From contig NZ_KE386495.1 in NCBI RefSeq assembly GCF_000427425.1, forward strand, positions 62,001 through 126,000: a DNA stretch of 64,000 nt, read 5' to 3'. The translations under genes were made by a program, and so were the position numbers. Under the pieces are notes generated by a model. It made no database searches and had not been told where the DNA came from. It saw nothing but the letters and a program-made list of their open reading frames with translations. The DNA comes from Caldanaerobius polysaccharolyticus DSM 13641. Its GTDB lineage: Bacteria > Bacillota > Thermoanaerobacteria > Thermoanaerobacterales > Caldanaerobiaceae. Of this stretch, positions 13,653 through 46,146 are shown in pieces; position 1 is the stretch's first letter; the number at the start of each line of letters is the position of its first letter.

Positions 13653-14615
13653 TTATTTATTGTAAAGATGGCATGCGACAAAATGGCCTGAAGCCACTTC
13701 TTTAAGCTCTGGCTCTACCTCCCTGCATATCTTTATGCAGTGGCTGCACCGATTTTGAAACTTGCAACCTGGCGGCGTGTTTATGGGGCTGGGCACATCC
13801 CCCTGGAGTATAATCCTTTCCCTCCTGCGCTCGATCTCAGGATCGGGAATGGGTATGGCTGAAAGCAGCGCCTGGGTATAGGGATGCAATGGGTTTTCAT
13901 AGAGCTCATCGCTCTTGGCCGTCTCCACCAGGCTTCCCAGGTACATGACGCCCACCCTATCGCTTATGTGCTTTACCATGCTCAGGTCGTGGGCTATAAA
14001 CAGGTACGTAAGGCCCATCCTGTCCTGAAGGTCTTCCAGCAGGTTGACGACCTGAGCCTGTATTGACACGTCCAGCGCAGATATAGGCTCGTCGCAGATT
14101 ATAAACTCGGGCTCGATAGCCAAAGCGCGGGCTATACCTACCCTCTGCCTCTGACCTCCGCTGAACTCGTGGGGAAATCTGTTGGCGTGCTCCCTATTCA
14201 ACCCCACCAGCTCCAGCAGCTGATATATCCTCTCCATGCGTTCCTTTCCTCTATAGAGGTGGTGGATGTCGATTCCCTCGCCTATTATATCCCCCACGGT
14301 CATCCTGGGATTTAGGGAAGCATAAGGATCCTGGAATATCATCTGAACCTTTTTCGTGTACTCCTTGTTTTCGGCTTTATTGAACTTGCTTATGTCTTTT
14401 CCCCTATAGAGTACCTTGCCATCGGTTATATCGTAAAGCTTTATGATCGTCCTCCCTGTAGTGGACTTGCCGCAGCCGCTCTCGCCTACCAGCCCGAAGG
14501 TTTCTCCTCTGTATATATCAAAGGTCACGTTGTCGACAGCCTTTAACACAGCGCCCTTACCCACATTGAAGTACTTTTTGAGGTTCTGCACCGTTAACAG
14601 TTTTTCCCCACTCAT
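13653..14615 (-). CDS. oppF: Oligopeptide ABC transporter ATP-binding protein OppF
   Basis: 320 residues. Walker A is GESGCGKSTTGR, the Q-loop QMIFQDPYASLNPRMTV, the ABC signature EFSGGQRQRVGIARAL and Walker B FIICDEPISALD. The C-terminal oligopeptide-transporter extension has a Cys cluster (CKFQNRCSHCIKIC), which in OppD/OppF family members binds an Fe-S cluster. The reading frame is open for 40 codons further upstream, but that part overlaps oppD and is not coding-like; the ATG at 14615 overlaps the oppD stop as ATGA, the usual coupled arrangement. It is the last gene of the opp operon. Confidence 0.93.
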   Translation of the reverse strand: MSGEKLLTVQNLKKYFNVGKGAVLKAVDNVTFDIYRGETFGLVGESGCGKSTTGRTIIKLYDITDGKVLYRGKDISKFNKAENKEYTKKVQMIFQDPYASLNPRMTVGDIIGEGIDIHHLYRGKERMERIYQLLELVGLNREHANRFPHEFSGGQRQRVGIARALAIEPEFIICDEPISALDVSIQAQVVNLLEDLQDRMGLTYLFIAHDLSMVKHISDRVGVMYLGSLVETAKSDELYENPLHPYTQALLSAIPIPDPEIERRRERIILQGDVPSPINTPPGCKFQNRCSHCIKICREVEPELKEVASGHFVACHLYNK

Positions 14616-15634
14616 GACGCTATACCTCCATTCAACTGAGGCGGCTGGACTTTTGGAGCCTGGGGATGCAGGAGATGACATGCGCATCCGTGCCCGCTGC
14701 CCAGGTCGTACACCGGCGGCTGTTCCTCCTTGCATATCCTCATGGCGTACTTACACCTGTCCGCAAAGGCACAACCCTTAGGGGGCGCCAGTAAATCCGG
14801 CGGCGTACCATCTATGGGGATAAGCCTCCTATTCTCTTTTACATCAAGCCTTGGCACTGACTGAAGAAGCCCCCATGTATAAGGATGCCTTGCCCTGTAG
14901 AATATATCGTCAAGGTTGCCGTACTCGACCACCTGGCCTGCGTACATGACGATCACCCTCTGAGCTATATCGGCCACTATGCCCAGGTCATGGGTTATCA
15001 GTATTATGGATGTTCCCATCTTTTGCTGCAATTCCTTCATCAAATCGATGATCTGCGCCTGTATGGTAACATCAAGGGCTGTAGTAGGCTCATCGGCTAT
15101 TAAAAGCTTGGGATTACAGGCCAGTGCAATAGCGATCATCGCCCTCTGCCTCATGCCACCGCTGAACTCATGGGGATACTGGTGAATGCGCCTGTGGGGA
15201 TTAGGTATCTGGACCAGCTTTAACATCTCCACAGCCCGCTCCAGCGCCTGACTCCTGCTCATGTTCTGGTGCTTTACAAGCGTCTCGGCTATCTGCTGCC
15301 CTATGGTCATGGTAGGGTTTAAGGAGGTCATGGGGTCCTGAAAGATCATTCCTATTTCCGAACCCCTTATAGCCTGCATCTGCTTTTCAGAACAACCTAC
15401 CAGTTCCCGGCCGTTAAATACGATGGAACCTTTTTTTATCTTACCAGGCGGCGATGGTATAAGCCTCATAATGGAATGGACGGTTACGCTTTTGCCGCAG
15501 CCGGACTCGCCTACGATAGCTATAGCTTCCCCTTGATCCAGCGAGAAGCTAACGCCTCTTACCGCTTTTACCTCTCCGGCATATGTGAAAAACGAAACCT
15601 CCAGATCTTTTACCTCCAGCAATTTGTTCCCCAT
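14612..15634 (-). CDS. oppD: Oligopeptide ABC transporter ATP-binding protein OppD
   Basis: 340 residues. Walker A GESGCGKSVTVHS, Q-loop MIFQDPMTSLNPTMTIGQQ, signature EFSGGMRQRAMIAIAL, Walker B LLIADEPTTALD, H-loop LITHDLG. The C-terminal OppD/F extension carries the Cys motif CAFADRCKYAMRIC. It forms the heterodimeric ATPase with OppF, whose gene overlaps by four bases downstream. Confidence 0.93.
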   Translation of the reverse strand: MGNKLLEVKDLEVSFFTYAGEVKAVRGVSFSLDQGEAIAIVGESGCGKSVTVHSIMRLIPSPPGKIKKGSIVFNGRELVGCSEKQMQAIRGSEIGMIFQDPMTSLNPTMTIGQQIAETLVKHQNMSRSQALERAVEMLKLVQIPNPHRRIHQYPHEFSGGMRQRAMIAIALACNPKLLIADEPTTALDVTIQAQIIDLMKELQQKMGTSIILITHDLGIVADIAQRVIVMYAGQVVEYGNLDDIFYRARHPYTWGLLQSVPRLDVKENRRLIPIDGTPPDLLAPPKGCAFADRCKYAMRICKEEQPPVYDLGSGHGCACHLLHPQAPKVQPPQLNGGIAS

Positions 15635-15642
15635 TTTATCAC

Positions 15643-16557
15643 CTACTTCCTCATCCGCGGATCAAGGGCATCCCTTATGCCGTCGCCCAATATGTTAAAT
15701 GCCAGCATGGTAAGGCTTATCAAAACCGCCGGGAATACCAGAAGCCACGGCGCGTTTTGCAAATAAGTGGTCCCGTCTGTGGCAAGGGAACCCCAACTGG
15801 CCTGAGGCAACCTTATGCCCAGTCCTATATAGCTCAAAAAAGCCTCTGTAAATATAGCCGATGGGATGTTAAGGGTTAGCCTCACGATGATAGGTCCTAA
15901 CGCGTTGGGTATGAGGTGCTTTGTTATGATCCTCCACGGACCAGCCCCTAGCGTCTTGGCTGCCAGCACGTACTCCTGTTCTTTTAGCTGAAGCACCTGG
16001 CCCCTTACAAGCCTCGCCATGTCCACCCAGCCGGTCAAAGCCATGGCCAATATAATGGTAAATTCCCCAGGCTGCATTATGATCATGAGGAGGATCACTA
16101 TAATGAGGGTGGGTATAGAATAAAGCACGTCCACTATCCTCATCATGATCTCATCGGTTATGCCTCCGAAATAACCTGAAATACCGCCGTATATAACTCC
16201 TACCACCATGTTTAACACCGCTGCTATAAACCCTATCCGCAGCGAAACCCTTGCACCCAGCCACGACCTGACAAAAAGATCTCTTCCCAGGTTATCCGTG
16301 CCAAACCAGTGGACGGCGTTGGGTGGCTTGAATATCGCCGTGTAATCCTGCTCATCGTAAGTAAAGGGCCTCAAATAAGGGCCGATTGCAGCCATGATTA
16401 TGATAATTAGCAGTATATAAAAGCTTATTACAGCCATCTTATTCTGCTTTAACCTTCTGTACGCATCCTTCCAGAAGGACACGCTGGGCCTTACGATCTT
16501 CTCGCTGGACTTCAAGTCGTATCCTATGGGCTCAAATTTACTGCGTTCCAGTTGCAT
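15643..16557 (-). CDS. oppC: Oligopeptide ABC transporter permease OppC
   Basis: About 304 residues. An N-terminal OppC_N segment (WKDAYRRLKQNKMAVISFYIL) and six helices with the EAA-type loop YVLAAKTLGAGPWRIITKHL. It ends in GDGIRDALDPRMRK, the family's C-terminal signature. I begin at ATG 16557 (MQLERSKF), which follows AGGGG at 7 bases; the reading frame opens 8 codons earlier within the oppB stop region. It pairs with OppB. Confidence 0.92.
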   Translation of the reverse strand: MQLERSKFEPIGYDLKSSEKIVRPSVSFWKDAYRRLKQNKMAVISFYILLIIIIMAAIGPYLRPFTYDEQDYTAIFKPPNAVHWFGTDNLGRDLFVRSWLGARVSLRIGFIAAVLNMVVGVIYGGISGYFGGITDEIMMRIVDVLYSIPTLIIVILLMIIMQPGEFTIILAMALTGWVDMARLVRGQVLQLKEQEYVLAAKTLGAGPWRIITKHLIPNALGPIIVRLTLNIPSAIFTEAFLSYIGLGIRLPQASWGSLATDGTTYLQNAPWLLVFPAVLISLTMLAFNILGDGIRDALDPRMRK

Positions 16558-16561
16558 ACCA

Positions 16562-17500
16562 TCACCCCTTCCCCTTGGCAATTCTTATCCTGGGATCTAT
16601 TACGCCGTACAATATGTCCACCAGCAGATTTACCCCTATCAGTATCACCGCAAAGAATATGGTGAGGCCCATTATAAGGGTGTAATCGTTGCTGTTGATG
16701 CTGGTCACATAGTGTTTACCTAAACCGGGAACGCCGAAGATATTCTCCACTACGAAGGTACCCGTAACCACCATGGCAAATATGGGACCAAATGTGGTCA
16801 CCACAGGGAGTATGGCGTTCCTCACGGCGTGCTTCCATACGACAGCGGCATTGGACAAGCCCTTTGACCTGGCCGTCTTTATATAGTCCTGATTTAACAC
16901 GTCCAGCATACTGGCCCTCATCATCCTGGAGACTGTCGCCAGCATGCTAAGCCCCAGCGAGAAAGAAGGAAGGATGGTGTATTTAAAGCTCTCCCATCCG
17001 GCAACGGGAAATAGCCTTATCTTCACCCCTAAAAAGTACTGAAGAAGTGCGCCTATTATAAAGTTGGGTACGGATACGCCTATGACGGCAATGACGGTGG
17101 AAAAATAGTCCCATCCGCTGTTATGCCTAACAGAGGCTATTATCCCCAGCAGTATTCCCAACACGGCTGCAAAAAACATAGCCTCAATCCCCAATGAGGC
17201 AGACACGGGAAAGCCTTGCGCGATAATGCCCTTCACGCTCTGGTTCTGGAAAAGCATTGACATACCAAAATCCCCTCGCAGGATGTTGGCGACATATTTA
17301 TAATATTGCACGATAAGAGGCTTGTCCAGACCGTATTTGGCGTCCAGGTTTCGCTGTATCTCAACGGGCACCTGCTTCATCCCTATATAGGGCTTGCCCG
17401 GAAGCAAATGCATGAGAATAAATGTAAACGTAAGTATCACCCAAAGAGTTATAAGTGCATAGCCTATACGCTTTAAGATATATATAAAAATATCCATCAC
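16562..17500 (-). CDS. oppB: Oligopeptide ABC transporter permease OppB
   Basis: 312 residues, starting MMDIFIYILKRIGYALITLW, the classic OppB/DppB first helix, followed by the PG-rich extracellular loop LLPGKPYIGMKQVPVE and NLDAKYGLDKPLIVQYYKYV. Six helices; EAA loop near YIKTARSKGLSNAAVVWKHA. It is separated from oppA by 56 bases containing a strong hairpin, and overlaps no other gene. Confidence 0.93.
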   Translation of the reverse strand: MMDIFIYILKRIGYALITLWVILTFTFILMHLLPGKPYIGMKQVPVEIQRNLDAKYGLDKPLIVQYYKYVANILRGDFGMSMLFQNQSVKGIIAQGFPVSASLGIEAMFFAAVLGILLGIIASVRHNSGWDYFSTVIAVIGVSVPNFIIGALLQYFLGVKIRLFPVAGWESFKYTILPSFSLGLSMLATVSRMMRASMLDVLNQDYIKTARSKGLSNAAVVWKHAVRNAILPVVTTFGPIFAMVVTGTFVVENIFGVPGLGKHYVTSINSNDYTLIMGLTIFFAVILIGVNLLVDILYGVIDPRIRIAKGKG

Positions 17501-17511
17501 CCCTTTTACAG

Positions 17512-17547
17512 TTTACAGGGTATATGCATCAGCATATACCCTGTAAA
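17512..17547 (-). other. 16-bp perfect stem-loop between oppA and oppB
   Basis: TTTACAGGGTATATGC at 17512-17527 pairs perfectly with GCATATACCCTGTAAA at 17532-17547 around a 4-base loop. There is no U-run, so it is more likely a 3'-end-stabilising structure or partial terminator that raises oppA expression over the membrane genes. Confidence 0.7.
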
Positions 17548-17556
17548 GCATCTACT

Positions 17557-19218
17557 TTATTTATCAAGCCCTAATTCCTTGATGCCTTTTATCAGCAGTT
17601 CCCTCGCCTGTTTTACATCGCTGCTGGGTAGTAAGTCTCCCGCTTCTTTCCTGAAAGTGTCTTTGTTTCCCCACATTATGTCAGGCACATATCCTGTAGC
17701 TGGCTTTGAATCATTTTTCAATATGTCTTTGACGAAGGTATTTCTGTCAACAGCCAGCGTCAATGCCTTCCTTATATTGGCATTCTTCAGCACAGGATCT
17801 TTTGTGTTAAACTGGAAATACCACGAGGAACCGTCTGAGAAGCTCTTTATCTCGTATCCGGCTTTTTTAACCCGGTCAAACTGTTCGCTAGCCACCTGAG
17901 CCACGTCCAGCTGACCTGTGAGGAACATATTGAGTTCGGTATTTCTATCATTTACCATAGAGAACTCAATCTTGTTGAGTTTAATCGCGTCTTTATTCCA
18001 GTAGTTAGGATTCTTCTCCAGAACCATTTTCTGCTGGTGATTCCAGGATTTTATGACCCATGGCCCATCGTATAACATCTTGTCAGGCTCTGAACCGTAT
18101 TTGTCCTTTACGGTCTCGTAGAACTTCTGGTTTAAAGGCATGTACGTAGCAAAAGCTGTCAAATCCGGGAAGTATGGCAAAGGCCTCTCGAGGGTGACCT
18201 GCAGCGTCTTGGCGTCCAGGGCCTTTACCCCTACCTGGTTGGGATCTGTTATCTTCTTGGTGTTATACGCCTCTGCGTTCTTTATAGGATACATAATGTA
18301 AGCGTATATAGCGCCCAATTTAGGATCCAAAGCCCTTTTCCAAGCGTACTCAAAGTCCTGGGCCGTCACCGGATCGCCATTGCTCCATTTGGCGTCCCTG
18401 AGCTTAAAGGTGTAGGTAAGGCCGTCCTTTGACACCGTGTAGCTCTCGGCAATACCGGGCATGACCTTGCCGTTCTGATCATACCTCATAAGCCCTTCCA
18501 TAACAGCGTTTATGACGTTCATAGAAACGGCATCCTGGGTCTGCTGGGGATCCATCTGAGGGGGTTCCTCACCCAGATTGTACCTTAAAGTGCCGCTCTT
18601 GGTGCTGGTCCAGTAGAAGTCCACATCTCCGCCCACAAACCTCCTCACAAGGCCTTGAACGTCAGGTTTTACCGAATAGGATATATACCTGTAATACACA
18701 GGGCCTATGGGCATTTCGTCCAAAAGCAGCTTTTCGGCCTTCTTAAAATCCTCCATGCGCTTGGCGTTGTCGTTGGTGTTCTGAGCATCTTTTATGAGAT
18801 TGTCGTATTCGGAATTGGTCCAACCCGAGTTGTTGTTAGCAGACCAGCTGGTCCAGAGGTCCATAAACGTCATTGGGTCATTGTAGTCGGGTGCCCAACC
18901 GGCCATAACGATCTGATAATCGTATTTGTTCATCCTTTCAAGCCTGGTCTTAAACGGCACGGTTTCAATCTCCACGTTAACGCCCAGGTTCTTTTTCCAC
19001 ATCTGCTGAAAGACCTGTGCATTTATCTTGGCCTGGGTTTGATCGTCAGTAAGGTACTTGAGCGTCGGCAGCTTTTTGACCAGCTCATCATAAGATTTGC
19101 CTTCAGAACTGCTACTCGTGGTGCTGCTCTGTTTTTTACCAGAAGAGCAACCTGTAAGCAATATTCCCAACATCATGACCACAGCCACGAATAGAGCCAG
19201 GTATTTTTTCCTACTCAT
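17557..19218 (-). CDS. oppA: Oligopeptide-binding lipoprotein OppA with circularly permuted domain order
   Basis: 553 residues, family 5 solute-binding protein. Signal peptide and lipobox LLTGC (Cys24), then a Ser/Thr linker. Residues about 50-203 (LPTLKYLTDDQTQAKINAQV through GWAPDYNDPMTFMDLWTS to PIGPVYYRYISYSVKPDVQG) match what is normally the C-terminal third of OppA. Residues from about 208 (GTLRYNLGEEPPQMDP, then EGLMRYDQNGKVMPGIAESY, WSNGDPVTAQDFEYAWKRAL, RKALTLAVDR) are the normal mature N-terminus and middle. The protein stops at KELGLDK, where a standard OppA would continue into LPTLKYL-like sequence. Each part occurs once, so this is a circular permutation and not a duplication. 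Both new ends fall in a loop, so the fold can be kept. It heads a complete opp operon. Confidence 0.9.
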   Translation of the reverse strand: MSRKKYLALFVAVVMMLGILLTGCSSGKKQSSTTSSSSEGKSYDELVKKLPTLKYLTDDQTQAKINAQVFQQMWKKNLGVNVEIETVPFKTRLERMNKYDYQIVMAGWAPDYNDPMTFMDLWTSWSANNNSGWTNSEYDNLIKDAQNTNDNAKRMEDFKKAEKLLLDEMPIGPVYYRYISYSVKPDVQGLVRRFVGGDVDFYWTSTKSGTLRYNLGEEPPQMDPQQTQDAVSMNVINAVMEGLMRYDQNGKVMPGIAESYTVSKDGLTYTFKLRDAKWSNGDPVTAQDFEYAWKRALDPKLGAIYAYIMYPIKNAEAYNTKKITDPNQVGVKALDAKTLQVTLERPLPYFPDLTAFATYMPLNQKFYETVKDKYGSEPDKMLYDGPWVIKSWNHQQKMVLEKNPNYWNKDAIKLNKIEFSMVNDRNTELNMFLTGQLDVAQVASEQFDRVKKAGYEIKSFSDGSSWYFQFNTKDPVLKNANIRKALTLAVDRNTFVKDILKNDSKPATGYVPDIMWGNKDTFRKEAGDLLPSSDVKQARELLIKGIKELGLDK

Positions 19219-19250
19219 AGAATTGCCCCCTTATTTTAAGAATTTTTTTT

Positions 19251-19296
19251 ATTTTGAAATGCAACCGAGGCGCATTTCAAAATTTCGTTGAAATGC
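19251..19296 (-). promoter_or_regulatory. oppA leader with two mutually exclusive hairpins
   Basis: Three copies of the same 8-base arm lie in the oppA 5' leader, alternating in sense: TGAAATGC at 19255-19262, GCATTTCA at 19272-19279, TGAAATGC at 19289-19296 (plus-strand reading). The middle copy can pair with either neighbour; pairing with the first extends to a 12-bp perfect stem (19251-19262 with 19272-19283). Such alternating pairing resembles attenuator or riboswitch-like leaders, but neither form has a U-run, and the oppA ribosome binding site (GGGGGC) lies about 20 bases beyond. Confidence 0.45.
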
Positions 19297-19472
19297 TCAA
19301 AAAAATATAGCAACTACTGCCCGTATGTTTGGGTAAAATGAATTATGTTGTAAATATAAATTCAACACTATTATATACTCACTGTAAACAAATTTCAATA
19401 AAATTTTCATATGCTAATTTTTTTGAACCCATAAAATTTATGCATAAAAATACATTTTAATTTATAAATTTA
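19297..19472. other. AT-rich intergenic region between the opp and gat operons
   Basis: No gene is seen. The sequence is strongly AT-rich and probably holds the minus-strand oppA promoter; several TATAAT-like hexamers are present but none has a clear matching -35, so I do not place one. Confidence 0.4.
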
Positions 19473-46059: not shown

Positions 46060-46146
46060 TTAGTTCGTTGAAACCTGCTGGGCAGTTGCTGCCGGTTCCG
46101 TTGAAACTGTCGTTTTGAGTATACCTATGAGGGATTGAAACTCCAT
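46060..46146 (-). CDS. 28-codon ORF overlapping the CRISPR repeat
   Basis: ATG at 46146 follows AGGAGGTG at a good distance and reads MEFQSLIGILKTTVSTEPAA then TAQQVSTN and TAA. The first 11 codons are the reverse complement of the CRISPR repeat. The excellent ribosome binding site belongs to the element's normal leader style, so translation is plausible. Whether the peptide matters, or the repeat simply landed behind a ribosome binding site, cannot be told. Confidence 0.4.
   Translation of the reverse strand: MEFQSLIGILKTTVSTEPAATAQQVSTN
46112..46141 (+). CRISPR. Solitary type I-B CRISPR repeat
   Basis: A 30-base unit starting GTTTTGAGTATACC and ending TATGAGGGATTGAAAC. The end includes the ATTGAAAC that becomes the 5' handle of I-B crRNAs. 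From memory it differs from the widespread Thermoanaerobacter/C. thermocellum repeat at about three positions near the front. There is no second full repeat; two partial echoes of the 3' end (CGTTGAAAC at 46066-46074 and 46099-46107) lie upstream at 33-34-base spacing. It sits between two minus-strand genes of the mobile element. Confidence 0.75.

Follow-up and report, generated by a model that had tools for sequence, protein, structure and literature searches.

A circularly permuted oligopeptide-binding lipoprotein in Caldanaerobius polysaccharolyticus and permuted relatives in Bacillota

An oppA gene of Caldanaerobius polysaccharolyticus DSM 13641 raises the question whether an oligopeptide-binding protein can be encoded with its C-terminal segment ahead of its N-terminal segment and still be a complete member of its family, and, if so, how such a gene came about. 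Natural circular permutation is known in many folds. The gene lies in a stretch of 64,000 nucleotides (contig NZ_KE386495.1, positions 62,001–126,000), which we call the window, and a preliminary description had read it as a circularly permuted OppA in which each part occurs once.

Segment order, conservation and gene context

The open reading frame is located on the minus strand, a detail missing from the preliminary description, and the plus strand there is non-coding (Table 1). In a phmmer search against the PDB, residues 208–553 match residues 19–364 of Bacillus subtilis OppA (8are, 273 bits), and residues 52–193 match residues 372–512 of the same structure (107 bits). That is, the two matches do not overlap and their order is swapped, and, as far as sequence comparison goes, the scores of both segments leave no room for chance. 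An alignment that comprises E. coli OppA together with 60 normal relatives also bears out the permutation, with residues 50–205 corresponding to 359–513 of mature E. coli OppA and residues 208–553 to 12–358. The break at 358/359 is gap-free and exact to the residue in this alignment, without any residue lost or duplicated, and the natural C and N ends are joined through ~2–3 residues. As had been claimed, the C-part and the N-part are present in a single copy each. Overall, we have a circular permutation, where both segments occur once and are swapped, with break and joint near-exact.

The homology spans the whole mature chain, as PF00496 (SBP_bac_5) scores 301 bits in two stretches (cut-off 32.4). 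Since the canonical order of N-part then C-part is absent, we class the window OppA as a permuted variant and not as a canonical SBP_bac_5 member. The OppA equivalog of NCBIfam, NF011684 (PRK15104), gives 273.9 bits, which is below its cut-off of 947 because the matches are split. An unrelated N-terminal domain, one of two objections raised beforehand, has been ruled out, the first 150 residues being clearly the C-terminal part of OppA in both phmmer and alignment. In the same genome, other matches to the protein are partial and only at 24–35%, and there is no other close OppA.

Table 1 Features of the opp locus, in window positions
Feature	Position	Strand	Basis
oppA, permuted oligopeptide-binding lipoprotein, 553 aa	17557..19218	-	ORF, segment order, Pfam
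Signal peptide, residues 1–23, lipobox LLTG before Cys24	19150..19218	-	direct reading, lipobox scan
Cys24 and Ser/Thr-rich flexible tether, residues 24–49	19072..19149	-	model: low pLDDT at tether start
C-part, residues 50–205 (part of domain III, last strands of domain I)	18604..19071	-	phmmer, alignment
Joint of natural C and N ends, residues 203–209	18592..18612	-	alignment
N-part, residues 208–553 (domains I and II, beginning of domain III)	17560..18597	-	phmmer, structure match, alignment
Asp111 codon	18886..18888	-	alignment to S. enterica Asp419 / E. coli precursor Asp445
oppB permease	16562..17500	-	ORF, operon comparison
oppC permease; the ORF as listed begins upstream, at 16581	15643..16557	-	ORF, operon comparison
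oppD ATPase	14612..15634	-	ORF, operon comparison
oppF ATPase; MSGEKLL as likely start, ORF listed from 14735	13653..14615	-	ORF, operon comparison
Inverted repeat in the oppA–oppB gap, 16 nt, perfect, loop of 4 nt	17512..17547	-	repeat search
Promoter-like TTGAAA-17-TATAAT upstream of oppA	19370..19398	-	scan; total not above shuffles

Related genomes share this order. It is found in the second species of the genus (G001) with 90% identity over residues 2–553, in a Mahella MAG (L034) with 62% over the full permuted length, in G1316, and, together with the same operon, in the one-contig genome G1212 (3,135,972 bases). Order and break are common to at least five Mahella-group genomes. Between the window and G001, the gene shows 204 synonymous and 72 non-synonymous changes, with none of the latter in residues 195–215 around the joint. 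The dN/dS is 0.046 for the whole oppA, 0.020 for the C-part and 0.041 for the N-part, while oppB gives 0.032. Thus the gene is under strong purifying selection and is constrained like oppB.

The operon has five genes, all on the minus strand, and the window oppA is its only oppA. The remaining genes are intact and normal, as described before, with oppB, C, D and F downstream in the usual order. In the surroundings that were read in G001, Mahella, f52, f96 and f117, the permuted oppA also heads oppA-B-C-D-F. The intact operon and the purifying selection support the earlier suggestion that the transporter probably works. The inverted repeat between oppA and oppB may form an mRNA-stabilising or attenuating hairpin that raises OppA over OppBCDF, and a candidate regulatory element in the leader of oppA, right before the start codon (19230–19310, minus strand), is a second hairpin, TTTTGAAATGC / GCATTTCAAAA. 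Elsewhere in the window, 46112–46141 match the Rfam direct repeat CRISPR-DR2.

Predicted fold, ligand site and tether

The AlphaFold2 input combined an alignment of permuted relatives with separate fragments of normal OppAs, and the model of the window OppA has a pLDDT of 95.2 and a pTM of 0.88. Its residues 185–530 superpose on DppE 21–364 (342 residues, 1.6 Å, Z 32.7). Foldseek and VIA-align follow the chain order, so only these residues were aligned, and the TM-score is only ~0.6 with such aligners, which cannot place the swapped part simultaneously. The predicted placement of the swapped C-part in the fold hence comes from the sequence match and the model confidence. In the alignment, the ligand-site residues are kept, namely Asp111 (Asp419 in S. 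enterica numbering), Trp108 (Trp416) and Tyr305 (Tyr109). Asp419 of S. enterica OppA (E. coli precursor Asp445) binds the N-terminal amine of the peptide (PMC5736914).

Compared with OppA/DppE of cluster C (8are, 8azb), the window OppA is alike in the sequence of both parts, the operon, the lipoprotein signal, the ligand-site residues and, over the aligned residues 185–530, the predicted fold. On the other hand, the termini and the lipid anchor of OppA/DppE are in domain I, while those of the window OppA are in domain III, with the segment order swapped. The lipoprotein signal with Cys24, which had been pointed out before, reads as the lipobox LLTGC. Secretion and lipidation at this Cys would attach the Ser-rich tether to domain III rather than to domain I. 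From there, the chain would run through the rest of domain III, enter domain I where the natural ends are linked, build domains I and II, and return to domain III to end there. Such a protein would presumably close over peptides and hand them to OppBC as usual.

Permuted relatives, break sites and the number of origins

The profile used for the search (A1, later A2) covers the stretch in which the natural ends are joined, and it detects permutants whatever their break. Besides Mahella, the first contig scan yielded three Fusibacter-type proteins with a different break, which are ordered as signal, VRKALTLAIDR..., C-part, and then the N-part ending ...YIFNVGI. With the joined-ends profile, a permuted OppA is found in 2 of 37 genomes of the window's own class, 11 of 398 across the phylum, 10 of 391 in the class of G061, and 31 of 297 in the Fusibacter order (Clostridiales 38-18, counted from rows), where several genomes have 3–7 paralogues; all these counts are lower bounds, because few candidates per genome were scored. 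None of 399 Bacilli genomes has a genuine permuted match, the single spanning match there being a tandem pair with stops. The window OppA is no singleton: there are many permuted family-5 proteins, with three break sites and several origins.

We have read ~80 permuted proteins from dozens of genomes and mapped their breaks on an HMM built from 112 normal OppAs. The three break sites are at ~311–315 (type F), 384–392 (type M, that of the window) and 477–480 (type X), or, in E. coli mature numbering, at approximately 275–280, 358/359 and 443/444, respectively. In BbOppA4, domain III comprises residues 286–503 (PMC5736914), and the equivalents of the new ends, 372 for type M and 291 for type F, are inside it. 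The type X ends should also be in domain III, which would place all three loops there. A lipoprotein signal is present in nearly all listed Mahella-group, F and X proteins by the lipobox scan; in f52, f117, f96 and f114, the signal peptide of the M-type proteins lacks the lipobox Cys. In domain annotation, Pfam shows two SBP_bac_5 stretches, and for type X even one normal-looking match.

The AlphaFold2 model of a Fusibacter-type protein is of similar confidence (pLDDT 95.0, pTM 0.89). Its residues 266–524 superpose on B. subtilis OppA 18–281 at 1.1 Å, and residues 28–238 match residues 312–526 of the C-terminal OppA fragment 3o6p. Some members of the collection show peculiarities of their own. 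The F-type OppAs L193 (G356) and L242 (G375) have an extra insert in the C-part, where the HMM match is interrupted at 485/476. The M-type gene L241:745-2430 (G694) is interrupted by an in-frame TGA in the C-part, which may reflect a pseudogene, a sequencing error or recoding. The Fusibacter-type OppC (L039:2561-3739, L228:6419-7621, L230:5944-7140) carries an insert of ~270 nt after residue 87. In addition, 12 f52 genomes contain a second permuted SBP_bac_5 protein, which is DppA-like (L274:2144-3730 in G382; L277-L288), is cut at about the M site and has a signal without lipobox. We count this protein as a further permutation, which took place in a different branch of the superfamily.

In the trees of de-permuted proteins, several branches of which are long, the permuted OppAs occupy separate positions among normal OppAs. 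Group M contains Mahella and f52/f96/f114/f117, and a single clade of Mahella with f52/f96/f117 is not rejected (AU p 0.50). G1506/L270 has the M break but is placed elsewhere. Group F1 (Fusibacter) is nested within normal Clostridia OppAs, and in the domain-wise trees both of its parts fall into one and the same normal clade; further groups are F2+F3 and one that mixes X- and F-type breaks. The AU test rejects a single clade for M including G1506 (p 9e-10), for all F-type proteins (p 9.6e-8), for F1+F2+F3 (p 2.6e-4), for M+F2+F3 (p 1.8e-4) and for the X group with F1 (p 0.0096), though these p values are optimistic, since the groups were named after the trees had been seen. G1506 and the X group are neighbours (support 92), so a shared origin with later shifts of the break could apply to them. 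From the separate tree positions and the AU rejections we count at least four independent permutations of OppA as supported, and the number is probably five or six. Two normal-order OppAs, L211 (G061) and L218 (G063), are found inside the permuted F2+F3 clade, which may indicate a reversal or a long-branch effect.

Alternative readings, known systems and significance

Overall, we consider, at a probability of about 0.9, that the gene encodes a complete, circularly permuted cluster-C (family 5) oligopeptide-binding lipoprotein of the OppABCDF importer of the same operon, which most likely originated via tandem duplication and trimming. In this mechanism, one oppA would have been duplicated in tandem, the two copies would have been fused, copy 1 through its C end and copy 2 through its N end, and trimming would then have removed the outer parts of the double gene. 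Similar events occurred repeatedly in Bacillota. The preliminary description had proposed the same origin, which is supported by the relationships of the two parts: in separate trees, both have their nearest normal relatives in one group, L008/L015 (f3 OppA, same order), and the domain-wise trees also place M with f3 OppAs. As this fits the duplication of one gene better than a chimera of two oppA paralogues or species, we hold the latter to be hardly probable, although the best identity matches differ slightly, with 51% to L015 for the C-part and 55% to L006 for the N-part. If two recent tandem copies of the same gene had fused, which is the path we favour, the result would look identical to such a chimera. 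Tandem oppA pairs are common in the genomes of relatives. In G790 (L252:325-3525, Bacilli), two oppA copies of 76% identity share one frame, separated by 21 nt with two stops, and a signal peptide is missing from the second; the pair looks like the state before in-frame fusion into a double gene, a plausible step though not necessarily the one taken in Mahella, or else a decaying copy. Within the window oppA, the repeat search found no duplication remnant.

The same abundance of tandem copies provides a setting for an artefact, in which two normal oppA genes were collapsed or misjoined in assembly or annotation. We regard this, the second objection raised beforehand, as practically negligible, considering that independent assemblies, including the single contig of G1212, have the same order and break, that the 204 synonymous differences separate the window from G001, and that the permuted proteins are so numerous. 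A single ancient permutation, from which the differing breaks and the normal-order relatives were derived by later shifts or reversions, would agree with all break sites being in domain III and with the one clade permitted for the Mahella and f52/f96/f117 types. However, we find it very unlikely in view of the AU rejections, even with their optimistic p values, and the common normal clade of both parts of F1; moreover, many reversions to the exact natural order are less likely than repeated permutation. Substrate-binding proteins can also serve receptors, and the tether of the window OppA now departs from the other lobe, so we have considered a permuted protein that does not feed OppBCDF, such as a peptide sensor or decoy. 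It would surprise us if this were the case, because the gene is the only oppA beside intact oppBCDF and is as constrained as oppB, and because the linkage of oppA with oppBCDF recurs in independent permuted lineages, in F1 with the operon order oppBCDF-A.

Outside cluster C, permuted binding proteins have been described before. One of them is TpMglB-2 (Tp0684), a circularly permuted type I glucose-binding protein found in Treponema pallidum and its relatives, whose authors discuss a link of the permutation to membrane tethering (PMC4990184). Like the window OppA, it is a tethered ABC binding protein that was circularly permuted in nature, and it retains binding. Unlike the window OppA, it belongs to cluster B, its N-lobe strands are moved, the moved part is poorly conserved, and one topology group is described. 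The glycine-betaine-binding proteins OpuAC (2b4l) and ProX (1r9l) form a permutation family as well (CPSARST, PMC2395249), which is likewise a circular permutation between binding proteins of one fold; they are of another class, small and two-domain, with <24% identity, whereas in the OppA case the identity is high and both forms coexist in related species. We found no description of a permuted OppA, family-5 or oligopeptide-binding protein in the open-access literature, in line with the preliminary description, and the PDB matches listed for the window protein and an F2-type protein contain no structure of a permuted family-5 member. To our knowledge, the family-5 case is apparently undescribed, and such proteins escape notice in domain annotation.

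It is tempting to consider repeated permutation with the ends always in domain III as adaptive, in that an anchor shifted from domain I would alter docking on OppBC or the freedom of closing; we put this forward as a tentative idea that is rather doubtful. The change in tethering that the preliminary description expected from the new termini is likewise a conjecture, and some relatives (f52, f117, f96, f114) have no lipobox in their permuted protein. The three loops may have been opened repeatedly simply because they tolerate a cut. That a single, well-studied transporter family underwent at least four independent permutations, with 45–70% identity between the normal and the permuted forms of related species and with intact operons, amounts to a rare natural experiment. 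The permuted OppAs offer a direct test of where a three-domain clamshell can be cut in its loops, whether the attachment lobe of the binding protein of an ABC importer matters, and how permutation runs through tandem duplicates.
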